Source: Nitrospirota bacterium (GTDB lineage Bacteria; Nitrospirota; Thermodesulfovibrionia; Thermodesulfovibrionales; SM23-35). From it: DNA of 64,000 nucleotides. Position 1 is the first letter of the stretch. The number at the start of each line of letters is the position of its first letter. Below are positions 3,500 through 11,759 of this stretch, in pieces. The stretch spans positions 107,315 through 171,314 of the forward strand of contig JACUUX010000001.1 in NCBI GenBank assembly GCA_014859105.1, written 5' to 3'. A program made the position numbers and the translations under genes. The notes beneath the pieces were generated by a model that was not told the DNA's origin, did no database searches, and saw only the letters and a list, made by a program, of their open reading frames with translations.

Positions 3500-3590
3500 T
3501 TCGAACGCTGAAGTTAAGGCGCAGGACCACAGAGGATTGAACAGAAACCAAAAACGTTTATTCCCTGTCGCCTTGAACACTTTGTTGTGC
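3500..3590 (-). other. attC recombination site (integron)
   Basis: TTCGAAC GCTGAAGTTAAGGCG(c)AGG ... CCCTGTCGCCTTGAACACTTT GTTGTGC; paired arms with extrahelical base. Confidence 0.75.
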
Positions 3591-4349: not shown

Positions 4350-5225
4350 TTAGGCGATCTCACTCGATAATTTCGCCAATTCTTTGAAATCGCTTTCTTT
4401 AAGAACTCGCATTGGAAAACCTTTCCGAATAAGTTCCTCCGCCTTTCTGTGCTTGGAACTTTTCTCGTGACCCGCAAGTTTTTTTACGTCTTGGTCACCG
4501 ACAACCAGCAATGTAGTTTTCTTTGTTACCCCTGATGCCACTTGGCAACCAAGGGTAGCCGCTAAATCGGCTGCTTCCCGGCGTGGTATTTCAAGTGCAC
4601 CGGTGAAAACAAGAACCTCACCGTAAAGTGCACCTTCGGGATTCCCTTCACGATTAATAGCAAAACCAGAGCTGCTTGCGGTGGGGTCGATTGGTTGGCG
4701 TACCCGCTTGAGCCATCCATTTATGTCTAGTCCGCTCTTATTGGACGCGGTAACAAGGATATGCGCCGCTGCTTTTGCATCTTCCAAGGCATCATGATGT
4801 TTGAAGTCATATCCGAGGATCTGACATACGTTATATAGCCCATACCCTTTCCATGCGCATTCCTCCCATGTTCGGCGGGCCACACGCGCTGAGTCGAGCC
4901 AAATACACTTTATCGCGTTAATGTGATACCGTTGAGTTGCCTGATTCATCGCGACCCGATCAAAGTGTGTGTGGCAAACAACTACTGCGCCTTCGAGAGA
5001 TGATCCTAACGTATCGGCCAATTGTGGGAACTTTGGGGCACCTTTAACAACAGTCTCGTCGATCCCGTGGATAGCAACATTAAAGGCATCAAAATAGTCC
5101 TCTGGATCGACGTAGGTTTTCCATTCATCTGACAAAGTTCCGCTTTCGTACTTTACCAGACCGATCTGGCAAATCGATGCCATATCGGCATTCGCTGTTT
5201 CAACGTCAATAGCTACAAAGTTCAA
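4350..5225 (-). CDS. DnaQ-family exonuclease with C-terminal BRCT domain
   Basis: MNFVAIDVETANADMASICQIGLV...IHGID...HHDALEDAKAAA + GALYGEVLVFTGALEIPRREAADLAATLGCQVASGVTKKTTLLVVGD (BRCT). Confidence 0.9.
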   Translation of the reverse strand: MNFVAIDVETANADMASICQIGLVKYESGTLSDEWKTYVDPEDYFDAFNVAIHGIDETVVKGAPKFPQLADTLGSSLEGAVVVCHTHFDRVAMNQATQRYHINAIKCIWLDSARVARRTWEECAWKGYGLYNVCQILGYDFKHHDALEDAKAAAHILVTASNKSGLDINGWLKRVRQPIDPTASSSGFAINREGNPEGALYGEVLVFTGALEIPRREAADLAATLGCQVASGVTKKTTLLVVGDQDVKKLAGHEKSSKHRKAEELIRKGFPMRVLKESDFKELAKLSSEIA

Positions 5226-5250: not shown

Positions 5251-5616
5251 CTAAACGTACTTCTTTAAATCAGCGGTGTAGATAACCTTTACCCCAGATT
5301 TTGAGCAGATAAGTTCTCTCTCTTCACCGAGATCGATATCAAGATCATCACCCCTTATGCCTTGCCATTCTGCTAAGTAGTTAAGTGATCCATATTTCTT
5401 ATTGGTCTTTTTCTTCGGATCAACGCCCCACTTCCAACCCAGATCAGGCAACTCACCATTTTCAGCTTGCTTAGCCAACTCTGGCGATTCAATGCGCCTT
5501 TTTCTGCCAATTTCCCAGCAGATAATTAGACCCTTGTCGGGACCTCTCCAACGTTCCTCAAATGAGGGATTTTCTCTTATGGGTTTGTTAATAGACCGAT
5601 AAATGCGAGTCGCCAT
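5251..5616 (-). CDS. hypothetical protein
   Basis: 121 aa, good coding character, no family recognised. Confidence 0.6.
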   Translation of the reverse strand: MATRIYRSINKPIRENPSFEERWRGPDKGLIICWEIGRKRRIESPELAKQAENGELPDLGWKWGVDPKKKTNKKYGSLNYLAEWQGIRGDDLDIDLGEERELICSKSGVKVIYTADLKKYV

Positions 5617-5653: not shown

Positions 5654-7455
5654 CTGTAGAAAAAGTCTTTTTTAATAAAATACCTCTCCCTTAAATGTCT
5701 TGTAAATCATTTTTTATAGCAGTTCAATATCAAAGAAGATCATTGGCATTCTTTATTATTATGCTTACTGCTTTACTGCTGAACCATTCTCTACATTCTC
5801 TATATCTATCTAACCACTTCATGCAAAAGCAGTCCCGTATCTATGGATTTTTATCAGGTTATGCACCAGACAATAAAGTTTCCACTGAATGTTCACCTTT
5901 CGTTTCCCCCGCAGGGTGAATCTGTCCAATCCCAAGGTGGAGCGAATATGGGCAAAAGGCGGTTCAGCCGTTCCAAGTCTTCTGTTGTAAATGAGCCGAC
6001 CTCTTATCGAATCAATCTTGCGTTTCATCTTCTGTGTAAATGTTTCAGGTGCACTTTCTGTTCGCCCTTGAAAAAAATAAACCTGGCGTGTTTCACTCGT
6101 ATCAGGATTCCGTAAACATTTCTCTCGTAGTTCGCATATTCGACAATCTGACTTGCGGCCCCGGAATTTGATCGCTCTGTTTCCGTCAACGATTACATTG
6201 CCTCCATTTCGGTACATTCGCTTTCCTGCAGGGCAGATGCAGTGTGTCTTGTCTTCGCTCATCGTAAAATCTTTTACCCTGTATAATACTCTTGTCCCAT
6301 AATACTCCGCTCTCTCTTTTCTAAAACGTTCTTTATACCTGTCAACGCCTTTAAACCGGGGATCACGCTTCCTAAACTGTGTGTCCGCTATGTATGCATC
6401 TATTCCTTCTTCCATGACCATCTTCATGTTGGACTCTGTATGAAATCCGCTGTCGGCAACGAGCTTCGCATCTTCGAACACATCTTTTTTACTACCGATT
6501 GCTTTAAAGTTCTCTCTCGCTCCCTTTACCATAGGCTTAAGCAGATCGTGCTCCTGTGCTGCCCCAAATGCTTCCGCATGCACGATTACCTGCTGCTTAT
6601 CGTCTACTACTGCTACTCCGTCATATCCCTGTATTACCCCATGCGATGTCTTCATCTTCGCACTGTCATTATCCGTAATGTTGCTTTTGATGGGTTTCCC
6701 CCTCTTGCCGGACTTGTCGTCGTTTTGCTTCAACCAATCTTTTATCTTCTTTACCTTCTCCCGAAGGGTATCTGCGTATTGCTGCTCCCACCCAACTATT
6801 TCCTTGTCCTGCTCTATTTCATCTATTTCACGATGCCGTTTGACAATCTGTCGTATGGCTTGCTTCATCTTCTCTTTCTTGTTTTGCAGATCTTCTTTCG
6901 TCCCGCTCCATTCCTTCGATGCATTGGAGGGCAGCTTGCATCCGTCTACAGCGAACATCTCTTTCCCTATCAGCCCCATCTCGTCACAGATCAATAAAAC
7001 TTCAAGAAATAACTTGATTATCTCTTGATCCAGTGATGATATAAAATCAGCTATTGTTGTAAAGTGCGGCTGTGTGTCTGCCGAAAGCGCCATGAAAATA
7101 ATGTTCTCCCTGCAGCATTGCTCTATCTTTCGGCTTGAAGTAATACCCCGTGAGTAGGCATATAGTATTATCTTTAATAGTATTGCAGGATCATATGCAG
7201 GTGCCCCTGTCTCGTCGTTCTTATACCTTTCATCAAACAGAGATAGGTCTATTTCGTTATCGATTAGATAATGAAGGGTGTGTTCAAAAGTCCCCGGCAG
7301 GATCTGTTTGTCGAAATACACCGGGATGAATTTCCCCTGGGAATAGTCATACTCTTTATATCTCGCCATCCGTCCTCCTTCCTACTAAGCGGCCTTTGAT
7401 TATTTTCCCGCAATGGAATGGCGATATTATAAGCCTTTCAAAACTTTTTCTACAG
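5654..7455 (-). mobile_element. IS1182-type insertion sequence
   Basis: Terminal inverted repeats CTGTAGAAAAAGT ... ACTTTTTCTACAG flanking a 516-aa transposase. Confidence 0.85.
5819..7369 (-). CDS. IS1182 family transposase
   Basis: MARYKEYDYSQGKFIPVYFDKQILPGTFEHTLHYLID...YDPAILLKIILYAYSRGITSSRKIE... Confidence 0.9.
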   Translation of the reverse strand: MARYKEYDYSQGKFIPVYFDKQILPGTFEHTLHYLIDNEIDLSLFDERYKNDETGAPAYDPAILLKIILYAYSRGITSSRKIEQCCRENIIFMALSADTQPHFTTIADFISSLDQEIIKLFLEVLLICDEMGLIGKEMFAVDGCKLPSNASKEWSGTKEDLQNKKEKMKQAIRQIVKRHREIDEIEQDKEIVGWEQQYADTLREKVKKIKDWLKQNDDKSGKRGKPIKSNITDNDSAKMKTSHGVIQGYDGVAVVDDKQQVIVHAEAFGAAQEHDLLKPMVKGARENFKAIGSKKDVFEDAKLVADSGFHTESNMKMVMEEGIDAYIADTQFRKRDPRFKGVDRYKERFRKERAEYYGTRVLYRVKDFTMSEDKTHCICPAGKRMYRNGGNVIVDGNRAIKFRGRKSDCRICELREKCLRNPDTSETRQVYFFQGRTESAPETFTQKMKRKIDSIRGRLIYNRRLGTAEPPFAHIRSTLGLDRFTLRGKRKVNIQWKLYCLVHNLIKIHRYGTAFA

Positions 7456-7515
7456 GTTCAACGACTTAAATCACTGGCAGGCTGAAAGCCTGTCCAGTGG
7501 ATTGTCTTGTTAGCC
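7456..7515 (-). other. attC recombination site (integron), IS inserted at its edge
   Basis: GTTCAAC GACTTAAAT CACTGGCAGGC tgaaa GCCTGTCCAGTG GATTGTCTT GTTAGCC. Confidence 0.85.
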
Positions 7516-7770
7516 TCCCTCTTTTATCATTTTTTCGTATTCATCGTGTGTTCCTATCCACGCCCAAATATAATCATCGCCGTCTTCTATAGCAAGAGCT
7601 CTATAGTTCAGCCCAGCGCGGACAGACCAGAATGTGCCTATTTTCTTAAAGTGGAGAGATGGATGTGAGGGATTTGATTTTAGTAACTCGAAATTTTTCT
7701 TTGATATTTTTTGAACAGGATAGGGAAGACTTTCAAAACATTTCCAGAAACGCCCTGTTGTTCGGTGCAC
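7510..7770 (-). CDS. RelE/ParE-superfamily toxin-like protein
   Basis: FWKCFESLPYPVQKISKKNFELLKSNPSHPSLHFKKIGTFWSVRAGLNYRALAIEDGDDYIWAWIGTHDEYEKMI. Confidence 0.8.
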   Translation of the reverse strand: MHRTTGRFWKCFESLPYPVQKISKKNFELLKSNPSHPSLHFKKIGTFWSVRAGLNYRALAIEDGDDYIWAWIGTHDEYEKMIKEGG

Positions 7771-7971
7771 CTAAAGATCCCTGAGTTTATTTGTTGCCTT
7801 TGCCTCAAGGGCTTCCTTCATTAAAAAGGCCAATTTCCCTGAACCCGAGTCTGCTGCAATTTGTGCATCCCATTTTTGCCAGTCTTTTTCGGAGAACCAC
7901 TGTCTCAACAGAACATAGTCTTCTTCGGGTAGGGTGTCAATGGCTTGTTTTATTTCTTCCACTTTTGACAT
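7771..7971 (-). CDS. cognate antitoxin-like protein
   Basis: MSKVEEIKQAIDTLPEEDYVLLRQWFSEKDWQKWDAQIAADSGSGKL; adjacent to RelE-like toxin. Confidence 0.75.
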   Translation of the reverse strand: MSKVEEIKQAIDTLPEEDYVLLRQWFSEKDWQKWDAQIAADSGSGKLAFLMKEALEAKATNKLRDL

Positions 7972-8024: not shown

Positions 8025-8111
8025 GGCTAACGACTTAATTCAGCGGCAGGGAATCTACCATTGAAAAACCAAACAAGGTTATTCCCTGTCCGCTGGAATG
8101 TCTTGTTGTGC
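8025..8111 (-). other. attC recombination site (integron), end of first cassette
   Basis: GGCTAAC GACTTAATT CAGCGGCAGGGAAT ... ATTCCCTGTCCGCTG GAATGTCTT GTTGTGC; R'' is the complement of the cassette 5' core at 10350-10356. Confidence 0.9.
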
Positions 8112-8510
8112 AATCTTTTTTATTCGGTTCATTTTGCGATTGAGTTTGCCTTCCTTAATTTCATGTTCCCAAATTCTGATTACCTGCCACCCTTTCATTT
8201 TCAGAGCTTTTGTTATTTTCTTGTCTCTATTTTTATTCTTTTCAATTTTATTATTCCAGTAATTAACATTAGATGAGGGCATACGGCAATGGCGGGGGCA
8301 TCCATGCCAAAAACAACCGTCAATAAACACTGCTATCTTCAAACGCGGAAAAATAAAATCAGGCTTTCCGGTCAACGGGTAATTGCGTCGCCATCCAACA
8401 ATGCCTTTTTCTTTGAGGATAGAAATAAATTTAAGTTCTGTGGATTTTGTGTTTCTGGACTTTACGCTTGCCATAATCCTTGAGCGTTCGGTCTTTGAAA
8501 ATGTATCCAC
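8079..8510 (-). CDS. vsr: very short patch repair endonuclease
   Basis: MDTFSKTERSRIMASVKSRNTKSTELKF...FPRLKIAVFIDGCFWHGCPRHCRMP. Confidence 0.95.
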   Translation of the reverse strand: MDTFSKTERSRIMASVKSRNTKSTELKFISILKEKGIVGWRRNYPLTGKPDFIFPRLKIAVFIDGCFWHGCPRHCRMPSSNVNYWNNKIEKNKNRDKKITKALKMKGWQVIRIWEHEIKEGKLNRKMNRIKKIAQQDIPADRE

Positions 8511-8513
8511 TGG

Positions 8514-9251
8514 TCACTTGATAATTTCTATCCAAGACTCATCAAACTTTATTGCTTTAAGGATTTCGTCTCGGTCAACTATGGGAGGTTTCTTAATTCT
8601 TATTGCAAGCCTGTCAGCAGGAACGTCCTCAATGATGGTAAATTGAGAGCCATGAGGCTGCCAAGTGAAAATATGTTGCTTGCCTTTTTTGCTAAATCCC
8701 TCCAAGTTGTTTCTTTCATTCCATTGCCACCAATAATCTTCAGCCCTATATAGAATAGTTTCAAATTCAAAAACAGCAGCCTCCAACAAGTCATCTGATT
8801 TGATAAGAACGACAGTCCTGACATGCTTATAAAGTTTGCGGATTCCAGCTACACGCTCGTTCCAGATCGAAAGAACTTTTTCGCCAAGATCGTTTGGGTC
8901 GGCATCGCTGATTTCTCGGTCGCCAAAAGAATAGATGGGGGAGTTTCTTCCAGATATAAGTCGAATTTTAGAGACCGTTGATGGTTGTCTATTTTTGACA
9001 GTCTTAGCTCCCCAAGCTGTTTGTTGAAGAACTATATCGTCTAACCCGACATTTGAGGGTTTCCATTTCGCGCCGACAAGCCTTGCAAATATTTCCTCCC
9101 AATCTGGGCCTTCCAGTCTTGTCGTGCCGCGCGATGCAAGTAAATACACAAGCTCGCGTCCCAAATTAAGCGCAAATTCTTTTGGGAATTTATTCAGCGG
9201 ATAAGGCGACTTGTATTTCTCTACTGTTCTTAATCTTGGCCTTTCTGCCAT
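8514..9251 (-). CDS. putative type II restriction endonuclease (by context)
   Basis: 245 aa between C5-MTase and Vsr, start overlaps MTase; no family motif recognised with certainty. Confidence 0.6.
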   Translation of the reverse strand: MAERPRLRTVEKYKSPYPLNKFPKEFALNLGRELVYLLASRGTTRLEGPDWEEIFARLVGAKWKPSNVGLDDIVLQQTAWGAKTVKNRQPSTVSKIRLISGRNSPIYSFGDREISDADPNDLGEKVLSIWNERVAGIRKLYKHVRTVVLIKSDDLLEAAVFEFETILYRAEDYWWQWNERNNLEGFSKKGKQHIFTWQPHGSQFTIIEDVPADRLAIRIKKPPIVDRDEILKAIKFDESWIEIIK

Positions 9252-10299
9252 ATTTTTTCCCTTTTTCGAAAATCATCATCTGGCCATCAACCATTTGATA
9301 CTGAAGATTATTGATATCGTATTCAACATAGCCGTTGTGCCATCCCTGAGCAATAAACAAATTTCTAAGGACTGCTTTAGCAACGGGGACAGGAAGACTA
9401 TTTCCAGCTTGCTTTCGAGTCTGGCTATAATTGCAGACAATTTTAAAGCTGTCTGGAAATCCCTGTAAACGCAACATTTCACGCATTGTGAGCCGCCTCT
9501 CTCCGTTAACGAGCAAGTAATTATATGAAGCTCCGGCACGCAATGCGCAAGAAAATGGATATGCGCTTATATGACCTGCCTTATTTTCGTGCCAGATTGT
9601 TACTTCTTTCGTGGGCTTAAGTTTTTTCAGGCGATTCTTTCGGATATACTTGGACGCATAATATTGCTCAGGAACATTTTCTTCTAAAATCTCCTTTAGA
9701 GGAATCATGGGGAACCCGCTTTTTGGCCAATCAAATGAACAGGCTTTTTTAAAACCAACAATAAAAATGCGTTCTCTTTTTTGGGGAAGCCCGAAATCTA
9801 AAGCATTTAGGACGCGAAAGTCTGCATAATAGCCTAAGTCTTTTAAAGCTGACATGATGCGCTTAAGCGTTTTGCCGTTATTATGGCCTGCCAATAATTT
9901 TACGTTTTCCAGTAAAAATGCTGGTGGTTTTTTAGCTTCAAGTATGCGTGCGATATCAAAAAAAAGCGTGCCGCGTGTGTCCTCAAAACCCTTTCTGTGG
10001 CCGATTATACTGAATGGCTGGCAGGGAAAGCCAGCAAAAAGCACGTCATGGTCAGGGATGGCCTCAGCCTTGATTGCCGTGATATCGGCTGCTGGTCTTT
10101 CGCCGAAATTTTCCTCATAAGCTTTTTGGCATTCCTCATCAATATCGCATGAAAAAACACATTTGACCTGAATACCGAATTCATTAGCCATTTGTTCAGC
10201 GGCGATCCGAAAACCGCCAATGCCGCAAAATAAATCAATAAATCTAATTGCTTTACCGTTTTTCCCTTCATTATTTGCCATGTTGCTATAGCTTACCAT
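9190..10299 (-). CDS. DNA (cytosine-5-)-methyltransferase
   Basis: FIDLFCGIGGFRIA...FAGFPCQPFSIIGHRKGFEDTRGTLFFDI...LLENVK...FGLPQKRERIFIVGF...RRLTMREMLRLQGFPD. Confidence 0.97.
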   Translation of the reverse strand: MVSYSNMANNEGKNGKAIRFIDLFCGIGGFRIAAEQMANEFGIQVKCVFSCDIDEECQKAYEENFGERPAADITAIKAEAIPDHDVLFAGFPCQPFSIIGHRKGFEDTRGTLFFDIARILEAKKPPAFLLENVKLLAGHNNGKTLKRIMSALKDLGYYADFRVLNALDFGLPQKRERIFIVGFKKACSFDWPKSGFPMIPLKEILEENVPEQYYASKYIRKNRLKKLKPTKEVTIWHENKAGHISAYPFSCALRAGASYNYLLVNGERRLTMREMLRLQGFPDSFKIVCNYSQTRKQAGNSLPVPVAKAVLRNLFIAQGWHNGYVEYDINNLQYQMVDGQMMIFEKGKKYGRKAKIKNSREIQVALSAE

Positions 10300-10349
10300 T
10301 ATCGACTGAGAGTCTTCAATTGTCTTTTATTATGTCGTTATTTATTAAT

Positions 10350-10356
10350 GCACAAC
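10350..10356 (-). other. attI-cassette junction core (GTTGTGC on minus strand)
   Basis: Plus GCACAAC between the first cassette gene and intI; complementary to the R'' of the first attC (8105-8111). Confidence 0.65.
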
Positions 10357-10481
10357 ATTTATTTTTAAACCTATTCTACATCTGGAAGCATTATATAAAG
10401 ATGCGTATTACAAGTCAAGAAATTCAATGTTATCTAAAGCTTAAAAGAATGTTGTTTTGTGGGTATTAATTCTATATAATA

Positions 10482-11759
10482 ATGCTATTTTGGTTGATAA
10501 GTTTAATATATATAAATCACATGCTTGATAATTTTAGGAGTTATCTGCTGCAAAAAGGGTCAATAAAACCAAACTATGTCCCTTATTATCTCAAATGGGT
10601 GGCGGATTGCTATTCCTTCCTCAATGTCCTCAATTCTGACCGGCTCGACAGCGATCGGAAGAAGCTCTATTTAGCCGATCTCGGCAAACGGCACGAGGAC
10701 TGGCAGGTAAAACAGGCTGATATGGCGTTGAGACTTTATGATTACTTCCTTTCCCGGGGATTGAAGTCATCGGCCTCCGGGATACCCGTATCGGGTGAGG
10801 ATTGGGCAGCCATCGAAGTGAAGATGCAGGAGGTGCTCCGGCTGAAACACATGTCATACAGCACTGAAAAAACATATCTCCTGTGGCTTCGCAGCTTTCG
10901 TGCATTCGTAAAGGAAAAGAATCCTGCAGAGCTTTCAGGACATGACCTGCAGGATTTTCTTAGCTATCTTGCTGTTGAGAAGAGAGTTTCTGCTTCTACC
11001 CAGAATCAGGCGCTGAATGCCATCGTATTTCTGTACCGCCACATCTTGGAGAAAAATATTGATAATGAATTGAGTGCAGTCCGCGCCAGTTACAGGAGAC
11101 GTCTTCCGGTTGTGCTGACCATACAGGAAATTGAGCGGATTTTTGATCATATAGAAGGTGTACAGCGTCTCATGGCTATGCTCATCTATGGATGCGGCCT
11201 CAGATTGCAGGAATGCCTGAGGCTTCGCATTAAGGATATCGACCTTGAGCAGAATATTGTCATTGTCAGATCCGGCAAAGGGGACAGGGATCGACGGACG
11301 ATTCTGCCGGAGTCACTAAAAGATGATCTCATACGACATATTGCAAAAGTAAAATCTCTTCATGATAAAGACAGAAAGGATGATATCAACGGTGTCTGGC
11401 TTCCGGGTGCACTGGAGAAGAAATATCCGAATGCAGGGAAAGAATGGGCATGGTTCTGGCTTTTTTCTTCCAAATCGCTGTCGGTTGATCCCCGTACTCT
11501 TTTAGTAAGGAGGCACCATATGCATCCTGCATCGCTCCAGAAGGCTTTTTATGATGGACTGAAAAAATCGGGCATAGCAAAACAGGCATCGGTGCACACC
11601 TTGAGGCACAGTTTTGCAACATACCTCCTTGAAAACGGATATGACATCAGGACAATTCAGGAACTCCTTGGACATAAAAACCTTCAGACCACGATGATAT
11701 ACACTCATGTGGCATCAAAAAACATTCTTAGTGTACGGAGTCCGCTGGATAAAATATAA
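10482..11759 (+). CDS. intI: integron integrase IntI (probable start ATG 10521)
   Basis: Tyrosine recombinase with IntI-specific insertion VWLPGALEKKYPNAGKEWAWFWLFSSKSLSVDPRTLLVRRHHMHP and HTLRHSFATYLLENGYDIRTIQELLGHKNLQTTMIYTHV. Confidence 0.97.
   Translation: MLFWLISLIYINHMLDNFRSYLLQKGSIKPNYVPYYLKWVADCYSFLNVLNSDRLDSDRKKLYLADLGKRHEDWQVKQADMALRLYDYFLSRGLKSSASGIPVSGEDWAAIEVKMQEVLRLKHMSYSTEKTYLLWLRSFRAFVKEKNPAELSGHDLQDFLSYLAVEKRVSASTQNQALNAIVFLYRHILEKNIDNELSAVRASYRRRLPVVLTIQEIERIFDHIEGVQRLMAMLIYGCGLRLQECLRLRIKDIDLEQNIVIVRSGKGDRDRRTILPESLKDDLIRHIAKVKSLHDKDRKDDINGVWLPGALEKKYPNAGKEWAWFWLFSSKSLSVDPRTLLVRRHHMHPASLQKAFYDGLKKSGIAKQASVHTLRHSFATYLLENGYDIRTIQELLGHKNLQTTMIYTHVASKNILSVRSPLDKI

Follow-up and report, generated by a model that had tools for sequence, protein, structure and literature searches.

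A predicted restriction-modification system and a Vsr repair gene within one integron cassette

We analysed a 64,000-nucleotide stretch of a Nitrospirota assembly (the window; positions 107315–171314 of its contig, JACUUX010000001.1). Within it, an intact integron integrase gene, intI (10482–11759, plus strand; 425 aa; TIGR02249 405.8 bits against a cut-off of 265), diverges from an array of gene cassettes. The first place after attI is occupied by a 2,325-bp cassette on the minus strand (8031–10355, measured between crossover points and bounded by core and attC) that carries three co-oriented genes. These encode a C5-cytosine DNA methyltransferase (MTase) resembling M.HhaI and M.HaeII (9190–10281, minus strand; 363 aa from its probable start, M7; PF00145 3.8e-87), a 245-aa protein predicted from family alignments and a structure model to be a type II restriction endonuclease (REase; 8514–9251, minus strand), and a Vsr very-short-patch mismatch endonuclease (8079–8510, minus strand; 143 aa, GTG start; TIGR00632 118.4 bits against a cut-off of 97.85, PF03852 1.9e-18). 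The 245-aa open reading frame overlaps the MTase frame as listed (9190–10299, 369 aa) by 62 nt, and vsr starts 3 nt after it. We thus found all three genes in the shared orientation described by an earlier, sequence-only reading of this DNA. The true MTase start is probably M7 (10281): the listed start at 10299 is out of frame in relatives L002, L003 and L005, and the ATG at 10281 recurs in nine of the ten sequences of an alignment in which the remaining one, L068, was wrongly oriented and is disregarded. Rfam gave no match in the window.

The unit has the anatomy of an integron cassette, with core/R'' complementarity, a paired attC carrying an extrahelical base, and a linked intI together with further attC sites. 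Its 5' core site at the attI junction, GTTGTGC (10350–10356, minus strand; crossover between 10356 and 10355), is complementary at 7/7 positions to R'' (GCACAAC, 8105–8111) of its own attC (8025–8111, minus strand; 87 nt). The L''/L' arms of that attC pair at 8/8 positions, with the usual extrahelical base. The site overlaps the last 33 nt of vsr; since the vsr frame runs through R'' and L'', the C-terminal residues of Vsr are encoded by attC. The sequence-only reading had the module bounded by exactly matching core sites, which holds for the 5' core and R''; the 3' core, GTTAGCC, belongs instead to the junction with cassette 2, whose own attC (7456–7515, minus strand) has an R'' (GGCTAAC) that matches it 7/7. 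A strict attC scan that did not require R''/R' pairing recovered four minus-strand sites in the 11-kb array, where shuffled copies averaged 0.0 each, and one site at the same strictness in the other 50 kb scanned. A scanner demanding R''/R' pairing overlooked array sites because R' in the array belongs to the next cassette. Further attC-like sites lie at 3500, 2117 and 1531 and outside the window edge. Under the general integron model, first position would make this cassette the most recently acquired, as the earlier reading proposed, although upstream cassettes could have been excised.

Expression of the cassette could draw on two candidate promoters. A Pc-like element, TTGACT-17-TATAAT (10390–10418, minus strand), matches the consensus at 11 of 12 positions and reads into cassette 1. 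The three closest intI genes (L060, L053 and L051; 58–62% identity) have TTGACA-17-TAAAAT or TTGACA-17-TATGCT at equal distance from intI, and this positional conservation of a consensus match supports the element as the putative array promoter Pc. A second candidate, AAGACA-17-GATAAT (10298–10326, minus strand; 9/12 match), lies inside a conserved block upstream of the MTase, TTGAA-N11-ATAATGG, which contains the -10-like hexamer GATAAT; a promoter borne by the cassette itself is plausible. The integrase has an N-terminal extension of ~110 aa beyond the TIGR02249 model, which is usual in its clade; other integrases above the TIGR02249 cut-off in the same order have open frames of mostly 414–526 aa. 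The host genome holds three intI genes, one in the window and the others on contigs C89 and C99, and all three carry the ~110-aa extension, as do others in the order.

The MTase is intact, with PCQ, ENV and QxRxR motifs. Its best solved relative is M.HhaI (full-length match, 2.4e-65), and its nearest annotated relatives (54–55% identity), from an Acinetobacter plasmid and the gonococcus, adjoin HaeII-type REases. HaeII cuts RGCGCY and HhaI cuts GCGC. Since the MTase resembles the MTases of both systems, our guess, held with somewhat better than even confidence, is that the target would have a GCGC core, as RGCGCY and GCGC do. The window holds 66 GCGC sites where 71 are expected, and with no depletion there we see no imprint of long residence.

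The 245-aa protein matched nothing in Pfam, NCBIfam, PADLOC, PHROGs or PDB sequences, and so no non-nuclease family, the kind of match that the sequence-only reading had named as telling against its proposal. Alignments to the NAM7 helicase (E about 0.1) were judged to be chance, and homology to the HaeII REase (PF09554) was rejected, with no Pfam match and an hhalign probability of 1.4%. The protein nevertheless represents a real family, which we found at 17 loci in the genome-contig collection, with 64–91% identity where most of the protein is covered; one of these loci, L017, holds only a 17-residue end. It occurs in 12 of 396 genomes of the phylum, has further members in viral contigs and in one phage-collection contig, and is absent from the plasmid records searched. 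Across 20 sequences reaching down to about 50% identity, E52, D71, D72 and K83 are invariant, and position 81, the place of the usual (D/E)XK acid before K83, is G or S.

Modelling the 245-aa protein with AlphaFold2 from 20 diverse sequences gave a pLDDT of 90.1 and a pTM of 0.84. A model built earlier from 15 closely related sequences reached only pLDDT 68, too poor for its fold matches to be used; the rise from 68 to 90 came from adding diverse members. Foldseek against the PDB placed four NhoI chains on top (probability 0.84–0.96), followed by apo NhoI (0.75) and DpnI (0.57), with EcoRV further down. These matches are weak, none reaching E 0.001, and TM-scores are low (0.29 query-normalised, 0.42 target-normalised). 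For comparison we used the PD-(D/E)XK core, alpha-beta-beta-beta-alpha-beta with catalytic D and K. The predicted topology (H49–59, E73–75, E78–86, E95–102, H119–138, E143–151; fold matches at E above 0.001) and the four invariant residues fit a PD-(D/E)XK variant in which E52 may substitute for the usual acid. The best reading of the 245-aa protein is the cognate REase of a type II restriction-modification (R-M) system, and it is probably a new type of DNA-cutting enzyme.

We next turned to relatives of the module. The MTase lies beside the 245-aa gene at all loci checked where the contig extends far enough on that side, and this pairing holds despite changed gene order or strand at L037, L038 and L046. 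Vsr is absent or undetected at L007, L009, L010, L029, L035, L036, L037, L039, L040 and L049. An R-M pair with an accessory repair gene would be expected to show this pattern, in which the MTase is always paired and Vsr is more loosely associated. Some copies are damaged: L047 has an in-frame TAG, and L048 and L050 have a frame break in the 245-aa gene. At L029 (MT836739.1, 'Bacteriophage sp.', human faeces), a helix-turn-helix-fused MTase and a 245-aa-family protein adjoin recombinase-like and relaxase-like open reading frames; despite its label, the entry resembles a mobilisable element more than a phage.

A tree of 30 rows built from REase plus MTase by a quick method, with SH-aLRT support only, places the window module in a 14-row clade (support 99) whose members all have Vsr. 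Clade members come from Nitrospirota, Myxococcota/Deltaproteobacteria, Thermodesulfobacteriota (Smithella) and Planctomycetota, or about four phyla, a count that binning errors may inflate because the members are contigs of metagenome-assembled genomes. Recognisable cassette ends occur only in this clade or its near-copies, with attC-like 3' ends at L001, L006, L008 (degenerate), L013, L016, L017 and L068. Upstream of the MTase, the core GTTRNGC was present in 7 of 11 clade members and 0 of 13 non-members, against a background of 0.04 per stretch of equal size. At L013 the core differs and R'' differs with it, so that the two still match (GTTGGGC/GCCCAAC), covariation as expected for a true cassette; the MTase and 245-aa matches of this locus are truncated and lie about 1.2 kb apart. 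In cassette-clade members L003, L004, L005 and L008, attC is weak, partial or unrecognisable by scan. A windowed attC test on single relatives had limited power (best p 0.006, many above 0.05), and our case therefore rests on the anatomy seen in the window together with the tree and the distribution of cores among relatives. Among the more complete clade members, cassette DNA is 78–84% identical. Copies outside the clade are without recognisable attC and often without Vsr. The sequence-only reading had counted it against a cassette if relatives carried the same three genes in non-attC DNA. Such copies exist (L012, L066 and L069), but all are outgroups to the cassette clade, and so they speak to how the unit arose, not to the cassette in the window. 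The simplest reading is that the module probably became a cassette once and then spread.

Taken together, these data make it likely, in our judgement, that one integron cassette carries a complete type II R-M system and a dedicated repair gene. The identities of the MTase, Vsr and IntI genes, the anatomy of the cassette, the constant pairing and the presence of the module in several phyla are shown directly; restriction activity, target site, promoter function and current mobility are the parts that we infer. The proposal of the sequence-only reading, a restriction and mutation-repair module in a single first-position cassette, thus gains support from the attC anatomy, the MTase-REase pairing and a nuclease-like predicted fold, with restriction itself a prediction. 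In this scheme the MTase would methylate cytosine at C5, its target probably being a palindrome built on GCGC (RGCGCY or GCGC, for example), and unmethylated copies of that site in incoming DNA would be cut by the 245-aa PD-(D/E)XK-like nuclease, for which E52, D71/D72 and K83 are the probable catalytic residues. Vsr would nick the T:G mismatches that arise when the methylated cytosine deaminates. Transcription would start at Pc, which lies immediately outside the cassette, with a probable contribution from the conserved candidate promoter inside it, and IntI would move the unit by attC x attI recombination. We hold more tentatively, at a little under even chances, a joint and more specific reading, in which a HaeII-like MTase, Vsr and an REase from a new type II family together became a self-sufficient, self-promoted cassette in a single event, when an attC joined the 3' end of vsr, and then spread across several phyla by integron recombination.

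Three other explanations bear on different parts of this scheme. The one that we take most seriously, as a real possibility though well short of an even chance, keeps the R-M function and places the target outside GCGC-core sites. C5-MTases of 42–45% identity to ours adjoin REases of other types, so relatedness alone leaves specificity unfixed. Those MTases, however, lack the recognition region WHEN...CALRAG.SYNYL.VNG that our MTase has in common with the HaeII-linked ones, making it close to the latter and a poor match to the former, and the best solved relative, M.HhaI, recognises GCGC. We consider it unlikely that the 245-aa protein instead acts as a partner for specificity or regulation, or is a nuclease that has degraded, either of which would reduce the cassette to methylation and repair. 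The protein has no named family, its apparent active site is without the standard (D/E)XK acid, and broken copies occur (frame breaks in L048/L050, an in-frame stop in L047); against this stand the invariance of the candidate catalytic residues across the 20 family sequences down to about 50% identity, an intact gene in the window and a fold search that ranks restriction nucleases first.

It is also conceivable, at very long odds, that the three genes form a chance or static neighbourhood at the integron boundary, with a fortuitous or dead attC-like sequence. Several relatives of the module do lie outside attC context, as such a neighbourhood would have it, but the 7/7 core/R'' match, the strict attC, the further attC sites along the array and the core/R'' covariation in L013 all argue for the cassette.

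We then compared the cassette with known systems. HaeII and NgoAI, both specific for RGCGCY, resemble it in an MTase of 54–55% identity with the shared recognition region and in an adjacent REase gene. Their REase, in contrast, is unrelated by sequence and profile and is about 350 aa long, compared with about 245 aa here; in the HaeII-type examples L030 and L031, no attC context or Vsr neighbour was noted. The NhoI/BisI family and DpnI supply the best solved folds for the 245-aa model, a weak likeness at the level of fold. They are modification-dependent enzymes (PMC11347163), whereas the 245-aa protein should cut unmethylated DNA because a cognate MTase is present. E. coli Dcm-Vsr and gonococcal V.NgoAXIII/XIV (PMC6116569) share with the cassette a C5-MTase association with a Vsr-family T:G mismatch endonuclease, but here Vsr sits in a three-gene cassette, and attC supplies the 3' end of its gene.

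Integron cassettes with R-M or anti-phage genes are already known and have been reviewed (PMC8618304, PMC12409362), and like ours they are attC-bounded defence genes expressed from Pc when in first position. Ours differs in holding three genes, including one for repair; one of these reviews (PMC12409362), citing Darracq et al. 2025, notes that integrons conspicuously lack larger defence systems, those with more than two genes. Our search of open-access papers found none describing an MTase-REase-Vsr cassette. R-M cassettes and Vsr-linked R-M are known; the novelty lies in the nuclease family and in the three-gene cassette. Close relatives of the module in several phyla, many with cassette ends, suggest that restriction systems can travel as integron cassettes. 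If our reading is true, whole units of three genes, for restriction, modification and repair, can be moved by integrons from one phylum to another, whereas the defence cassettes so far reported are small, with one or two genes. There would also be a further family of restriction enzymes to characterise, one whose target can be tested, and a natural case of a methyltransferase that shares its cassette with the means, Vsr repair, to offset the mutations that methylation costs.

The rest of the array holds further features. Cassette 2 (7510–7971, minus strand) encodes an 86-aa ParE-like toxin (PF24732, 23.8 bits, just below the cut-off of 24.4) with a 66-aa open reading frame upstream, and is likely a toxin-antitoxin cassette. 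After it, an insertion sequence (5654–7455) lies within the array, encoding a 516-aa DDE transposase (5819–7369, minus strand) between 16-nt inverted ends (5654–5669/7440–7455, 94%). Beyond that, a minus-strand open reading frame (4350–5225) combines an RNase_T exonuclease domain with BRCT, and is adjoined by a 121-aa open reading frame (5251–5616) with no Pfam match.
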